Source of the DNA: Desulfovibrionales bacterium
Lineage (GTDB): Bacteria > Desulfobacterota > QYQD01
DNA length: 64,000 nt
Assembly (NCBI GenBank): GCA_028715605.1
Contig: JAQURM010000003.1
Location: 162,810-226,809, forward strand
Reading direction: 5' to 3'
Position 1 is the first letter of the stretch. Every line of letters starts with the position of its first letter. The position numbers and the translations under genes are program-made. Below are positions 16,366 through 23,427 of the stretch, in pieces. The notes beneath the pieces were generated by a model. It made no database searches. It was not told the DNA's origin and saw only the letters and a program-made list of their open reading frames with translations.

Positions 16366-16450
16366 GCAATTGAAGCTCCCCGCAGCAAGCTACGGGGAAT
16401 CTCCGTATGCAAGGTGAGATGCATCGTATTCGCTCGCTATGCATGTTCAG
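16366..16450. repeat. dispersed repeat family C (GAAGCTCCCCGC...)
   Basis: Carries AATTGAAGCTCCCCGCAG, GGGGAATCTCCGTATGCAAG and CATCGTATTCGCTCGCTATG. The same blocks recur at 28629-28752 and, inverted, at 50619-50657. It reaches the stop of the neighbouring IspH-UbiA gene. Confidence 0.75.
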
Positions 16451-18186
16451 AAATGCGCCCATAGATAGCTTACCAGGCCGGCCATAACAAAGTTATTTTC
16501 AATCAGGAATTCCAGTTTTACTCCCCGTCGCAGGTAGTTCTTTTCGAAAAGGACAATGCATCCGGCCATGGATAACACCGGTAAGGTCAGCCAGAGGCCG
16601 ACCGTGGTAACATATCCGAGGAAGGAAGAAGCCGCGAGGAGAATAACCATAAATGCTATAAGTCCCTTCAGCAGGGTAAGAGTTGACCTCTCTCCGATTA
16701 AAATAGGCAGTGTCTCCCGTCCGAACATACGGTCCGCCTGGACATCAAATACTTCCAGGAGCGCCGAACGCACGAAGACAAAGGCAAGGACAAAGAGGAA
16801 GGCCGCGATAAGGCCCGGCGTGAACCCCTGGCCTGAGTTCCAGGCAGGCAAAAAAGCCGCAACTGCCGCCCAGGCCAGGGCTATAAATAATGTCCTGGAT
16901 CCCGGTATGTCTTTCAATCGACGGAGGGGAATAACAGGGCTTAAAAAATCGGGAATAATTTTGACTCCGTACAATGTCCCCAGGATGCAAATAAAAAACA
17001 GGAAGAGAAACGGAAATAAACCCAGTGAGTAAGATAGAGAAAGGGCAAAGGCAGCGGCCAGGAGAGATAATAAAAGGATAACCCTTTCGTGTTTAGCGAA
17101 GAATATAGCCCGTCCGGGTTCGGAAAAGGCGTCTGCTTCTTTGTCTGTAAAATGATTCAGATTATGGACGGCATAGATATAGGCGGCCGCAATGAAGAAA
17201 TATGGCAAGGCCCCTTTTATCCCCTGTAGTTTGAGAGAGGCATAGGCGAGGAATCCTGCCCCGAGGCTGATATAAAGGTTGCTTTCCAGAAGAAAGCGAA
17301 AAAATGTATATGCCGTAGCCTTAAGGGTGCTTTCCTGTTTACCCCTTACCCCTTCCAGTTTGCTTACAACCCGGTTGATTATCCAGTTGGGGGTCGATGC
17401 CCCGGCCGTAACGGCCACCCGGCTGAAACCGGACATCTCTTTTAAATCCAAATCGTTTTCTGTCTCGATATGGTAGGCTTTTAACCCGGCCTCTTCTGCA
17501 ATTTGAGCCAGTCTTTTTGTATTTGCGCTTTCCTTACCACCTACTACAACAACGGCTTCAACTTCTTTGCAGAGTTCAAGAACCTCGGCCTGCCGTTCGT
17601 GGGTTGAATGGCAGATAGAATTAAATATCCGGCCCCCTGGATATTTTGAGGTGATTTCCGAGGCGATCTCGTTAAAAAGGTTTTCATCCTGCGTAGTTTG
17701 AGCCACGATAATGTATTTGTCCAGCTTGGGGAGTCCGGCAATATCGGTCTTGCTGCTTATTAAGAGGCCCAGGCCTCCGGCAAAACCAAGGAGTCCCAAT
17801 ACCTCCGGATGCCCTTTGTCGCCAACGATGATTACCTGATAGCCCCTGCGGGCAAAGCGGCGGATAATGGTTTGAACCTTTATAACCCGCAGGCAGGTGC
17901 CATCTATTACCTGTACGCCGGTCTGCAAGATAGCTTCTTTTTGCTGGGGAGGGATGCCGTGGGCCCGGATAACTACCGTGCCGCCTTTGATCTCACCGAC
18001 GCTCCTGGCCACGGAGACGCCTTTATCAGCCAGCAAATCCAGGACCTGCTGGTTGTGAATAAGAGGGCCAAAAGTGGATATTGGTCCGCCTACGGCAGAT
18101 TTTTCCTTGACCGCAGCCAGCAAGGTATCCATGGCCCTTCTTACGCCCATGCAAAAGCCGGCCTTTTTGGCCAGAATAACCTTCAT
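16447..18186 (-). CDS. IspH (HMBPP reductase) fused to UbiA-type prenyltransferase
   Basis: A 579-residue fusion. Residues 1-~280 are IspH/LytB, the 4Fe-4S enzyme of the last step of the MEP isoprenoid pathway: cluster cysteines in GFCMGV (12), DGTCLRV (~96) and NSICHSTHERQ (~192), and the catalytic Glu in GHPEV. Residues ~295-579 are a multi-spanning UbiA prenyltransferase with N-x3-D-x3-D (NHFTDKEAD, ~342) and DVQAD (~480). So one polypeptide makes the isoprenoid precursor and carries a prenyl-transfer domain. IspH is normally ~280-315 residues and stands alone. The acceptor of the UbiA half is unknown. Confidence 0.9.
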   Translation of the reverse strand: MKVILAKKAGFCMGVRRAMDTLLAAVKEKSAVGGPISTFGPLIHNQQVLDLLADKGVSVARSVGEIKGGTVVIRAHGIPPQQKEAILQTGVQVIDGTCLRVIKVQTIIRRFARRGYQVIIVGDKGHPEVLGLLGFAGGLGLLISSKTDIAGLPKLDKYIIVAQTTQDENLFNEIASEITSKYPGGRIFNSICHSTHERQAEVLELCKEVEAVVVVGGKESANTKRLAQIAEEAGLKAYHIETENDLDLKEMSGFSRVAVTAGASTPNWIINRVVSKLEGVRGKQESTLKATAYTFFRFLLESNLYISLGAGFLAYASLKLQGIKGALPYFFIAAAYIYAVHNLNHFTDKEADAFSEPGRAIFFAKHERVILLLSLLAAAFALSLSYSLGLFPFLFLFFICILGTLYGVKIIPDFLSPVIPLRRLKDIPGSRTLFIALAWAAVAAFLPAWNSGQGFTPGLIAAFLFVLAFVFVRSALLEVFDVQADRMFGRETLPILIGERSTLTLLKGLIAFMVILLAASSFLGYVTTVGLWLTLPVLSMAGCIVLFEKNYLRRGVKLEFLIENNFVMAGLVSYLWAHF

Positions 18187-18218
18187 CTATGTGAGCCCCC
18201 AGAGAGGATAATATGGGT

Positions 18219-18406
18219 TAAGCATTGAAACCGTTCACTGTTATCAGTTCACCGTTGTCCGTAAGAACCTGAAAAGCGTTTTTTGGGTGAACAGTCGATG
18301 GTGATTGCATTTCCCGTTAGCTTGGCCGCCGGTGTCCGTGAGAAGCGCGAAAAAGGTCTTTTTCGGTGAACGGCAAACGGTCAACGGTCAACGGTGAATG
18401 CTTAAT
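18219..18406. repeat. dispersed palindromic repeat family A, double copy
   Basis: Outer arms TTAAGCATTGAAACCGTTCA and GTCAACGGTGAATGCTTAA are complementary, with two internal copies of the TCCGTAAGAA/TCCGTGAGAA...GGTGAAC unit. It lies upstream of the IspH-UbiA gene. Confidence 0.75.
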
Positions 18407-18472
18407 ATTTTGATATGGCAATATACTGTAAAAACGAGAGACATTCAACACAGCCTTCGCTTTTTGTAGAAA

Positions 18473-18739
18473 GTGGACCTTTCCCCAAAAATCTCAGCAG
18501 ATTATGTCAACGTGTTAATTTTTATCCAATTTTTGCGTTTTGGAAATGAAAGCCGTCATTCCTTTGCTTCACGGCTTGCGCAGTGACCCTTTCGGGACTC
18601 GCAGGTGGGGAAGGCTTGCCCCTTCCAGCCTCTAAAGGGCTGGCTTTCCCCTTTCTGCTCGCCCTCGAAGGGTGCCCCACTGCTCCAGCAAGTTACGCTC
18701 AGGAATAACGGCCTCCATAAAAATGTGGGGAAAGTCCAC
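18473..18739. repeat. MITE-like element with terminal inverted repeats
   Basis: GTGGACCTTTCCCC (18473-18486) faces GGGGAAAGTCCAC (18727-18739), bounding 267 bp with no gene. Inside are TTCACGGCTTGCGCAG and GCTCAGGAATAACGG, which recur in the element at 28569-28793. No target duplication was clear. Confidence 0.6.
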
Positions 18740-18801: not shown

Positions 18802-19767
18802 ATGGCTACAGCTAAATTGCCTGCACACGCGTACCTGGGGTTGATAATCCTGGCTGTCTCCTCTATGTTGCTTATTTACAGGACTGAGCCGGTTTATTCG
18901 CTTTTTTACATCTTTGCCTGGTGGCCGTACATCCTGCTGATCGATGGCCTGGTTTATCGATATAAGGGGAATTCCCTTCTCGTAAATCGTACCGGCGAGT
19001 TTTTTTTGCTTGTTCCCTGGTCAGTCTTTATCTGGCTCATCTTCGAGGCCTTTAACATTTATATCAAAAACTGGTATTATGTCAGGATAATAGATATCCG
19101 CTGGCTGCGCTGGCTGGGTTACTTTGTAGCCTATGGCACGGTGTTGCCCGGCCTTTTTGAAACTACAGAGTTTCTGGAGGCAGCGGGTCTCTACAAGAAG
19201 AGGCACATTCGGCCCATTTCTCCGGCCAAAAGCTGGTATGGCCCGTTTATACTTTTAGGCCTGGCCTTTTTCATCCTGCCGGTTATCTGGCCGCAATACT
19301 TTTTCCCGTTGGTCTGGGGCTGTTTCGTTTTTCTTCTGGAGCCGATAAATCATCACTTCGGCGGCCGGTCGTTAATGCGTGACTGGCAGCAAGGCTCTCT
19401 CCGCAAATTCTCTCTCCTGCTTACGGCCGGATTCATCTGCGGCGTATTCTGGGAGCTGTGGAATTTCTGGGCCGGGAGCAAATGGGTATATACCGTACCC
19501 TTTGTGGGACAGTTTAAAGTGCTTGAGATGCCCGTTGCCGGCTATTTCGGTTTCCCGCCTTTTGCAGTAGAATGTTATGTTATGTATAATTTCATCTCCT
19601 TATTACGGGAGAATAAAGGGTGGGAAGAGGGGAGCATGGGAATACAGGAGAAGACAGCGCCTTATTTCGTGCCGGCAGCCGTGGCTATCATAGTCTCCTA
19701 TGCCTACATTATGTTCCAGACCATCGATCAAAAGACTGTTCACTCCTTTGCCCCCATCTTTTACTAA
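18802..19767 (+). CDS. polytopic membrane protein, unknown
   Basis: A 321-residue protein with about eight hydrophobic helices (for example YLGLIILAVSSMLLIY, WWPYILLIDGLVY, FILLGLAFFILPVIW, FVPAAVAIIVSYAYIMF). Many aromatic residues and a conserved-looking WELWNFWAGSKWVY loop. No known transport or enzyme motif was recognised. Its stop is 5 bp before the rimO start, so the two are probably co-transcribed. Confidence 0.75.
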   Translation: MATAKLPAHAYLGLIILAVSSMLLIYRTEPVYSLFYIFAWWPYILLIDGLVYRYKGNSLLVNRTGEFFLLVPWSVFIWLIFEAFNIYIKNWYYVRIIDIRWLRWLGYFVAYGTVLPGLFETTEFLEAAGLYKKRHIRPISPAKSWYGPFILLGLAFFILPVIWPQYFFPLVWGCFVFLLEPINHHFGGRSLMRDWQQGSLRKFSLLLTAGFICGVFWELWNFWAGSKWVYTVPFVGQFKVLEMPVAGYFGFPPFAVECYVMYNFISLLRENKGWEEGSMGIQEKTAPYFVPAAVAIIVSYAYIMFQTIDQKTVHSFAPIFY

Positions 19768-22358: not shown

Positions 22359-23351
22359 CTAACGTTTTAAATCTCTCAACAAGCGCTGAAGTGACCTTTG
22401 ATACTCGTTCTCAATACCCCATTGGCTGAAATCACCAATATGTCTATTCTCCCGAATCTTACGCGCCCACGGCATATCACTGTTCAAAACTTCTTCATCA
22501 ATTTGAACTGGAAATACAACAGTATCGCCGCGATCGCGCTCCTCTGCAAAAGCTCTTTCTACCTCGTCACGAACCCACTCACTAGTTACGGATTTCTTGG
22601 ACAGAATTAAGAGGAGTTTCTCCCGCTGGCGAATTGCCGCGTAAATTGAGTCCAATATTCTGTCGCCTATCTTCATATCATGGGGGGCATACCAACACCT
22701 TACGCCTCTTTTCTGTAAGTCAAGGTAAAGCTTCTCTGCAAACGATTCGTCTCTTGATGAGTATGAAATGAAGCAGGAGTAATAATCACCTTCACTCCCT
22801 AGATTTATAGCTAAGGCTTCCTGATCATTAGCGTAGACTGCCTGAATTGCCGATTCGTTCAGCCCACATCCGCGCATGAACTCGCGTGGCATATGGCCTG
22901 ATTTGGTAAGAGTCTCCCTATCGATGAAACTCGGCCCGTGGTGTTTTGTCGCCGACAGACCTTTGGCACCTCTCAAGTCTGTATTAAGCAGCCTTGTGTG
23001 CGAAAACACGGTTGAGTCAAACTCAGCGCCTTGACAATTGGCATCTTCAAAGTTCGCGTCAGAAAGGTTGGCATGTGGAAAGCGTGCGGTAGAAAGGTCT
23101 GCTTTGTGAAAATCAGCTCTCGTTAGCTGAGCACCGGATAAATCAGCCCCAATTAGGTCTGTCCAACGAAGGTCTGCCCACTCTAAATTTGCATCCATTA
23201 GCATCGCGCCGTTTAGATTCGCACGAACAAAATCGGCTCTGCGAAGGTTAGCACCTCTAAGGTCAAGTCTGATATTCGGGTACCTTTCACGCCAAAAGGC
23301 AATTGCCTTCGCCCCCTGTAATACTATATTCACGTGCTCTTCGTTAGCCAT
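22359..23351 (-). CDS. pentapeptide-repeat protein with C-terminal TIR domain
   Basis: About 330 residues from MANEEHVN; an upstream in-frame ATG would add 7. Residues ~35-130 are A(D/N)LxxAx pentapeptide repeats (LRGANLRRADFVRANLNGAM ...), a right-handed beta helix. Residues ~190-330 are a TIR domain: CFISYSSRDESFAEKL, CWYAPHDMKIGDRI, LLLILSKKSVTSEWVRDEVE, where the Glu after W is in the usual NADase position. Prokaryotic TIRs often degrade NAD+ in antiphage defence or act as scaffolds. No partner gene is adjacent. Defence is possible but not shown. Confidence 0.85.
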   Translation of the reverse strand: MANEEHVNIVLQGAKAIAFWRERYPNIRLDLRGANLRRADFVRANLNGAMLMDANLEWADLRWTDLIGADLSGAQLTRADFHKADLSTARFPHANLSDANFEDANCQGAEFDSTVFSHTRLLNTDLRGAKGLSATKHHGPSFIDRETLTKSGHMPREFMRGCGLNESAIQAVYANDQEALAINLGSEGDYYSCFISYSSRDESFAEKLYLDLQKRGVRCWYAPHDMKIGDRILDSIYAAIRQREKLLLILSKKSVTSEWVRDEVERAFAEERDRGDTVVFPVQIDEEVLNSDMPWARKIRENRHIGDFSQWGIENEYQRSLQRLLRDLKR

Positions 23352-23427
23352 TGCCACTGACTCCTCCCGCATTTAATTTGTATCGAACGATCATTTCCAA
23401 TTTGTGTGTTGCAATTTCCCAGAATAC

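Follow-up and report, generated by a model that had tools for sequence, protein, structure and literature searches.

A fused IspH-UbiA protein from a Desulfovibrionales bacterium and the graded metal site of its family

IspH proteins fused to a UbiA-like membrane domain are already known, since this architecture was published by Rao et al. (2015; PMC4746011). IspH catalyzes the final step of the MEP pathway, by which bacteria make isoprenoid precursors, and UbiA proteins form a family of membrane prenyltransferases. The accessible part of that paper reports 47 such "Rosetta stone" proteins, all said to be in sulfate-reducing anaerobes, with two DXXXD repeats in the UbiA part, and assigns no function to the UbiA half. 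A later study of the fused UbiA half was not found in our literature search, outside of which lay most subscription journals. Here we analyzed a fusion encoded in a stretch of 64,000 nucleotides (the window) from a Desulfovibrionales bacterium (assembly GCA_028715605.1, contig JAQURM010000003.1, positions 162,810 to 226,809). The window protein has a UbiA-like domain C-terminal to IspH in one chain, as in the fusions defined by Rao et al. (2015), and shares with them the N-terminal IspH, a C-terminal half of about nine helices and the presence of a separate UbiA or MenA elsewhere in the genome. We propose, as an even bet, that its IspH is tethered to the membrane and that its UbiA half, which has a complete site in the window's genus, prenylates an acceptor other than menaquinone. 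The parts of the gene, with residue numbers of the window protein, are the following:

16447 to 18186, minus strand: IspH-UbiA fusion gene, 579 amino acids; open frame, single genome match, same in four congeners.
17353 to 18180, minus strand: IspH/LytB domain, residues 3-278; PF02401, PDB 3dnf, VIA-align on 3szu_A, invariant residues.
17278 to 17352, minus strand: linker, residues 279-303, with a short helix at 287-301 in the AlphaFold2 model.
16549 to 17259, minus strand: UbiA-fold membrane domain, Pfam span residues 310-546; PF01040 (E 1.6e-13), VIA-align, charge count.
17131 to 17157, minus strand: UbiA motif 1, residues 344-352, N-H-F-T-D-K-E-A-D; NxxxDxxxD complete, by profile alignment to 4tq3.
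16894 to 16920, minus strand: inside loop RLKDIPGSR, residues 423-431; conserved, with K/R at 431 in 146/156 fusions and P428 in 139/156.
16732 to 16755, minus strand: UbiA motif 2, residues 478-485, E-V-F-D-V-Q-A-D; D485 in 154/156 fusions, acids at 478 and 481.

An earlier note on this DNA had placed both domains in one chain and had suspected a seam near 17300-17400. The first point is borne out by a continuous frame (16447-18186, minus strand) of 579 codons, uninterrupted from ATG to stop, with Pfam matches to both domains; the suspected seam proved to be ordinary coding sequence, and congeners and other full-length fusions have no stops there. The window genome (2.56 Mb) gave a single match to the fusion, and in four congeners the protein recurs with 95-96% identity and without internal stops, one copy ending at residue 568 at a contig end. 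The splitting of the window genome into 25 contigs could suggest an assembly or frameshift artefact, but the four congeners have the same frame, and so do single-contig genomes, G213 and G160 among them, which makes such an artefact extremely improbable. Read-through in particular was ruled out, as the congeners and the listed full-length fusions share the stop-free frame.

Relatives of the fusion are widespread. In the window's phylum, 373 of 395 genomes gave a match; among the 150 matches listed, 141 were full-length stop-free fusions, 3 were partial, 1 had stops and 5 were IspH only. A genome-contig search led to 52 loci encoding relatives, not all fused, in records titled Deltaproteobacteria, Desulfobulbaceae, Thermodesulfobacteriota, Candidatus Scalindua, Candidatus Brocadiaceae, Nitrospinota and others. 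In the phylum of the Candidatus Scalindua record L023, which we take to be an anammox organism, 27 of 199 genomes match at E <= 1e-90, and two further, weaker fusions (L269, L273) occur in that phylum; in the phylum of the Nitrospinota record L035, 9 of 60 genomes match at E <= 1e-60. The fusion is therefore not limited to sulfate reducers, being found at full length in Candidatus Scalindua and Nitrospinota records. Where the accessible text of Rao et al. (2015) names sulfate reducers only, our sample also covers the phyla of Candidatus Scalindua and Nitrospinota. The pairing had been described in the earlier note as no standard arrangement of IspH; fusion to UbiA is indeed an unusual form of this enzyme, but the search for the two-domain architecture found relatives widely, with at least 141 full-length fusions among 395 phylum genomes, and the architecture is both published and common.

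For the comparison of residues, 188 loci were fetched (52 from the genome-contig search, 36 from the Candidatus Scalindua and Nitrospinota phyla and 100 further), including 95 of the 141 full-length phylum fusions. Each gave a frame, and 13 loci shorter than 500 amino acids were excluded (L039, L040, L043, L048, L050, L051, L054, L056, L221-L225). The other 175 loci and the window protein formed an alignment of 176 sequences, reduced to 156 after dereplication at 90% identity, and a profile of the UbiA half (A2) was built from 45 sequences. L225, from genome G025, is a fusion gene with two in-frame stops, either a decaying copy or an assembly error.

The IspH half is complete in sequence and model. 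The LYTB family PF02401 matches residues 3-278 (E 9e-86, 287.9 bits against a curated cut-off of 24.5), TIGR00216 scores 266 against its cut-off of 187.85, and VIA-align superposes this half on 3szu_A (Z 33.7, 281 residues, 1.9 Å). The nearest solved sequence is PDB 3dnf (E 6.1e-65), which we take to be Aquifex IspH. Eleven positions, picked from E. coli IspH as presumably those of the cluster cysteines and the substrate (C12, C98, C192, H44, H76, H126, E128, T165, S220, N222, S264), are invariant in 156/156 dereplicated fusions, and T164 is kept in 154/156. Judged by its sequence, the window protein has the domain and the active-site residues of an IspH. The top NCBIfam score of this part went to the IspH-RPS1 fusion NF000907, below its cut-off (305.6 against 624 bits); that family also has an N-terminal IspH half, but its C-terminal partner is ribosomal protein S1, whereas the window protein carries a membrane domain.

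In the second half, PF01040 matches residues 310-546 (E 1.6e-13, 50.9 bits against a cut-off of 34.2), and the UbiA-fold domain extends beyond the Pfam span, from about 290 to about 579. An AlphaFold2 model of the window fusion, made from an alignment of 67 fusions (A1), had a mean predicted local distance difference test score (pLDDT) of 92.7 and a predicted template modelling score (pTM) of 0.87; in this model the linker (279-303) precedes the first predicted membrane helix, at 304-321. The membrane half superposes best on archaeal UbiA structures, namely 4od4_A (VIA-align Z 19.6, 257 residues, 3.0 Å), 4od5 (Z 19.5) and 4tq3_A (Z 18.7, 263 residues, 4.0 Å), which differ from the window protein by having no IspH and show 14-18% identity. 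Soluble prenyl diphosphate synthases start at Z 15.8 and are interleaved with the digeranylgeranylglyceryl-phosphate (DGGGP) synthase 7bpu_A (15.3) and UBIAD1 8djk_B (14.9), so that only the archaeal UbiA structures stand clear. Nine membrane helices are predicted with the N-terminus inside, and the stretches between them carry 14 lysines plus arginines on the inside, against 1 in the outside loops; by this count, the motif loops of the UbiA half share the cytosolic face with IspH. Sequence and model thus show a complete IspH domain at the cytosolic face, held on the membrane by a domain of UbiA fold with its motif loops turned to that same face.

Profile alignment to the archaeal AfUbiA (4tq3) places N344, D348, D352, D481 and D485 on N68, D72, D76, D198 and D202, so all five have counterparts in the window protein; its relatives differ, mostly lacking a counterpart of D76 and often one of D72. 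In the accessible part of the AfUbiA study (PMC4106721), the activity of EcMenA needs the counterparts of N68, D72, D198 and D202, with D76 acting indirectly at most, and the binding of geranyl diphosphate (GPP) by AfUbiA is lost on mutation of N68 or D72. With a domain score above the cut-off, the UbiA fold and the ligands N344, D348, D481 and D485, the window half belongs to the UbiA family. Across the 156 fusions, N344 is kept in 139, D348 in 89, D352 in 16, D481 in 102, D485 in 154 and Y406 in 141; an acid stands at 478 in 148 and at 481 in 116, and motif 2 therefore reads (D/E)xx(D)xQxD. All four canonical Asp are found in the window protein alone. The earlier assertion that both active-site sets are intact thus stands for the window protein (IspH ligands; N344, D348, D352, D481, D485) and fails for the fused family. 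In conservation among the 281 positions of the UbiA half, D485 ranks 1st, Y406 7th and N344 10th, which indicates that the pocket is still under constraint; position 352 ranks 258th. Asp occurs at both 348 and 352 in 2 fusions, at 348 alone in 87, at 352 alone in 14 and at neither in 53, so that the two tend to exclude each other (Fisher p 2e-4), and the effect is weaker when Glu is counted (8, 90, 13 and 45; p 0.015), both p values being too small because of kinship among the fusions.

In the mechanism that we favor, the IspH half would reduce (E)-4-hydroxy-3-methylbut-2-enyl diphosphate to isopentenyl diphosphate and dimethylallyl diphosphate at the membrane surface. The UbiA half of the window protein (N344, D348, D352, D481, D485, Y406) would bind an Mg-prenyl diphosphate and would transfer the prenyl group to an acceptor other than the menaquinone ring. 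It is possible that precursor supply in this way feeds a membrane prenyl-transfer step within the window protein. In favor of this mechanism are the intact frame with both domains, the folds of the two halves, the motif loops on the IspH side, the invariant IspH ligands, the full ligand set of the window half, the constrained pocket, the retention of all four needed ligands in 9/9 fusions from the Nitrospinota phylum, and the separate MqnP-like protein of the window genome.

Several observations weigh against this proposal. Motif 1 (NxxxDxxxD) is complete in only 2/156 fusions, and N344, D348, D481 and D485 are all kept in only 48/156 (62 if Glu is counted); in the phylum of Candidatus Scalindua this set is kept in just 3/27. 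Eight halves of the Thermodesulfobacteriaceae type lack an acid at both 348 and 352, and the one that was scanned, L047, has no Pfam match. Several lineages lack the UbiA half or have a degenerate one, and unrelated housekeeping genes, which vary from group to group, lie around the fusion and point to no acceptor. Also, expression of the full fusion was unsuccessful according to the accessible part of Rao et al. (2015). The two DXXXD repeats stated there differ from our sample, in which motif 1 is incomplete in 154/156. As a control, NxxxDxxxD was present in 29 of 33 non-fusion UbiA loci from 20 genomes, the four exceptions being the fragments L079 and L082, L291 (second Asp one residue later) and L292 (no Asn).

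The fused family is therefore graded, as its sequences and models indicate, with a site-complete form in the window's genus, a motif 1 with one Asp in most members, and a worn site within a UbiA-like predicted fold in the Thermodesulfobacterium type. For the latter, profile comparison with the main family gave a probability of 47.8 (E 1.9e-4), the best model of the L047 half had a pLDDT of 90.3 (61.9-90.3 over five models), and its top PDB matches were UbiA structures (probability 1.00, template modelling score about 0.5-0.6, E 0.03 and above). The IspH frames L243 and L247 (family f32, 542 amino acids) have a membrane end whose fit to the half profile is confined to its later part (E 3e-10 and 5e-8); this end is perhaps a second worn form.

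Such wear is what would be expected if, in most or all holders, the UbiA half were only a membrane anchor for IspH and prenyl transfer had been lost, an explanation that we regard as somewhat unlikely. It is favored by the incomplete motif 1 in 154/156 fusions, by the low rank of position 352 and by the L047 half, which has a confident UbiA-like model without a Pfam match or an acid at 348/352. But the window protein retains the whole metal site, and D485, Y406, N344 and R473 are conserved far beyond the needs of an anchor. Moreover, at a given IspH identity the halves of site-worn pairs are more diverged than those of site-complete pairs by only 0.02-0.04 in 4 of 6 bins, and the reverse is seen in 2; given so small a gap, we rejected a strong general relaxation of selection in site-worn members, which is at most slight. 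Because many lineages keep a half with an incomplete site, the benefit common to all holders is more likely to be the membrane location of IspH than one fixed prenyl transfer.

The history of the family bears on the same question. The IspH tree, rooted by choice on L226-L230, included unfused IspHs from 40 chosen places together with L043, L054 and L221-L224; L264, a repeat of G010, and the broken L225 were dropped. All 161 fused IspHs of the sample, drawn from three phyla plus the unplaced record L053, fall into one clade of 173 tips (support 0.895), the remaining 12 tips of which are unfused IspHs belonging to 7 groups. This topology fits a single old fusion that was inherited or spread across phyla, with later losses. 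The basal supports are low (0.47-0.8), and hence the unfused groups L256/L257 and L236/L240/L241 may predate the fusion; the nested unfused groups L255, L246, L221/L222/L224, L043 and L223 lie in better-supported clades. The half as a separate gene was not found (E <= 0.001) in 9 genomes with a nested unfused IspH or in 4 others. The anchor explanation gains from these 12 unfused IspHs inside the fused clade and from the absence of a separate half in all 9 such genomes searched. At L043 (6001-6855), an unfused IspH keeps the gene order of its fused relatives, with an ATE-type gene before and an FtsY-type gene after it. Apparently the UbiA half was lost there while the gene stayed in place. Some lineages have thus lost the UbiA half, and in others it retains the predicted fold although the site is worn.

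When 123 phylum genomes were searched with the half, 49 rows reached E 1e-20, of which G033 (293 amino acids) is stand-alone, G114 is a contig-end fragment and the rest lie in frames of at least 507 amino acids. The 20 nearest-relative loci that were checked comprised 2 fusions, 1 probable cut fusion and 17 stand-alone genes; L267 (G555), stand-alone in appearance, may be a cut fusion, since a contig end lies 34 bases from its start. Since 13 of the 17 stand-alone relatives keep NxxxDxxxD (absent in L270, L275, L281 and L284), the second Asp was probably lost after the fusion. An operon ancestry was considered and rejected, as a search with the IspH profile of the stretches fetched around the nearest stand-alone relatives turned up no separate ispH frame.

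A known pair of proteins offers a further alternative. In the accessible part of PMC9314443, UBIAD1 and HMG-CoA (3-hydroxy-3-methylglutaryl coenzyme A) reductase (HMGCR) illustrate that a UbiA fold is able to detect a prenyl diphosphate and influence an enzyme of isoprenoid supply. The likeness lies in a UbiA-fold protein bound to such an enzyme, but there it involves two separate chains, the mevalonate pathway and a eukaryote. By analogy, the UbiA half could act as a sensor of prenyl diphosphate, controlling or placing IspH in a covalent counterpart of the human complex. Foldseek also matched the window model to the HMGCR-UBIAD1 complex (8djk_B, E 9.4e-4), and pocket residues are conserved despite the worn catalytic metal site; yet mutants of AfUbiA at N68 or D72 are reported to lose GPP binding (PMC4106721, accessible part), and the D72 counterpart is not Asp in 67/156 fusions (Glu in 9), so that we hold this explanation to be quite unlikely. 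The broader view that in much of the family the half is a membrane-embedded sensor or anchor and no longer a prenyltransferase, again parallel to UBIAD1 and HMG-CoA reductase within a single bacterial chain, is unlikely in our estimate. With similarly low confidence, the window's genus would represent the site-complete form under that view, and the Thermodesulfobacterium types the fully worn one.

The function of the fused half is thus a question to be put to a graded family and not to one uniform type, and the series is well suited to separating prenyl transfer, sensing and anchoring, as loss of the metal site need not entail loss of the fusion. Our data go beyond Rao et al. (2015) in the wider range of phyla, in the worn UbiA site set against an invariant IspH site, and in the lineages whose half is lost or worn.

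Returning to prenyl transfer by the window protein, its genome gives some indication of the product. A ubiD-ubiX-mqnP-like locus (L058, contig C15 of the window genome) lies apart from the fusion, which makes the fused half a second UbiA in this genome and menaquinone an unlikely product of it. The ubiD frame of L058 as listed starts late (248 amino acids, best profile matches beginning near 227 of 433). That the half is itself the menaquinone prenyltransferase MenA or MqnP is suggested by its membership of the UbiA family; this is very unlikely given the separate MqnP-like protein, the presence of at least one UbiA row other than the fusion in each of the 20 genomes examined, and the top NCBIfam match of the window half, NF010117, which is neither MqnP nor MenA. 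This unspecific model is matched by 44/45 halves at E <= 0.01 and is followed by archaeal geranylgeranylglyceryl-phosphate (GGGP) transferase models and chlorophyll synthase, all far under cut-off for the window half. A bacterial DGGGP synthase making archaeal-type ether lipid might be supposed, as the archaeal DGGGP synthase 6m31 is the best profile match among solved sequences (E 0.0033) and the GGGP transferase models match 36-39 of 45 halves, although far under cut-offs for the window half. But a search for PcrB/GGGP synthase, the partner enzyme that would make the acceptor, drew a blank in 18 of the 20 genomes with a fusion, that of the window included, and in the other two (G399, G042) the matches are short and near the cut-off; in the controls this search was positive in 7 of 14, four of them archaea. 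We consider such a role highly improbable.

Gene neighbors were also tried as a guide to the acceptor, and this approach was rejected for want of a coherent signal across lineages: depending on the lineage they are ATE, FtsY, TerB/DnaJ, RadC, DUF502, Dus or DUF3842, with one further neighbor that we take to be a TadA-like protein. Upstream of the fusion gene (18190-18560), no direct repeats of at least 14 bases were found. Divergent from the fusion, positions 18802-19767 on the plus strand encode a membrane-type protein of 321 amino acids without a Pfam match, which is kept in the congener loci L006, L007 and L008. Further along the window, a gene at 22362-23372 on the minus strand encodes a pentapeptide-repeat protein (PF00805, E 1e-28) with a C-terminal TIR domain (PF13676, E 5.4e-24).
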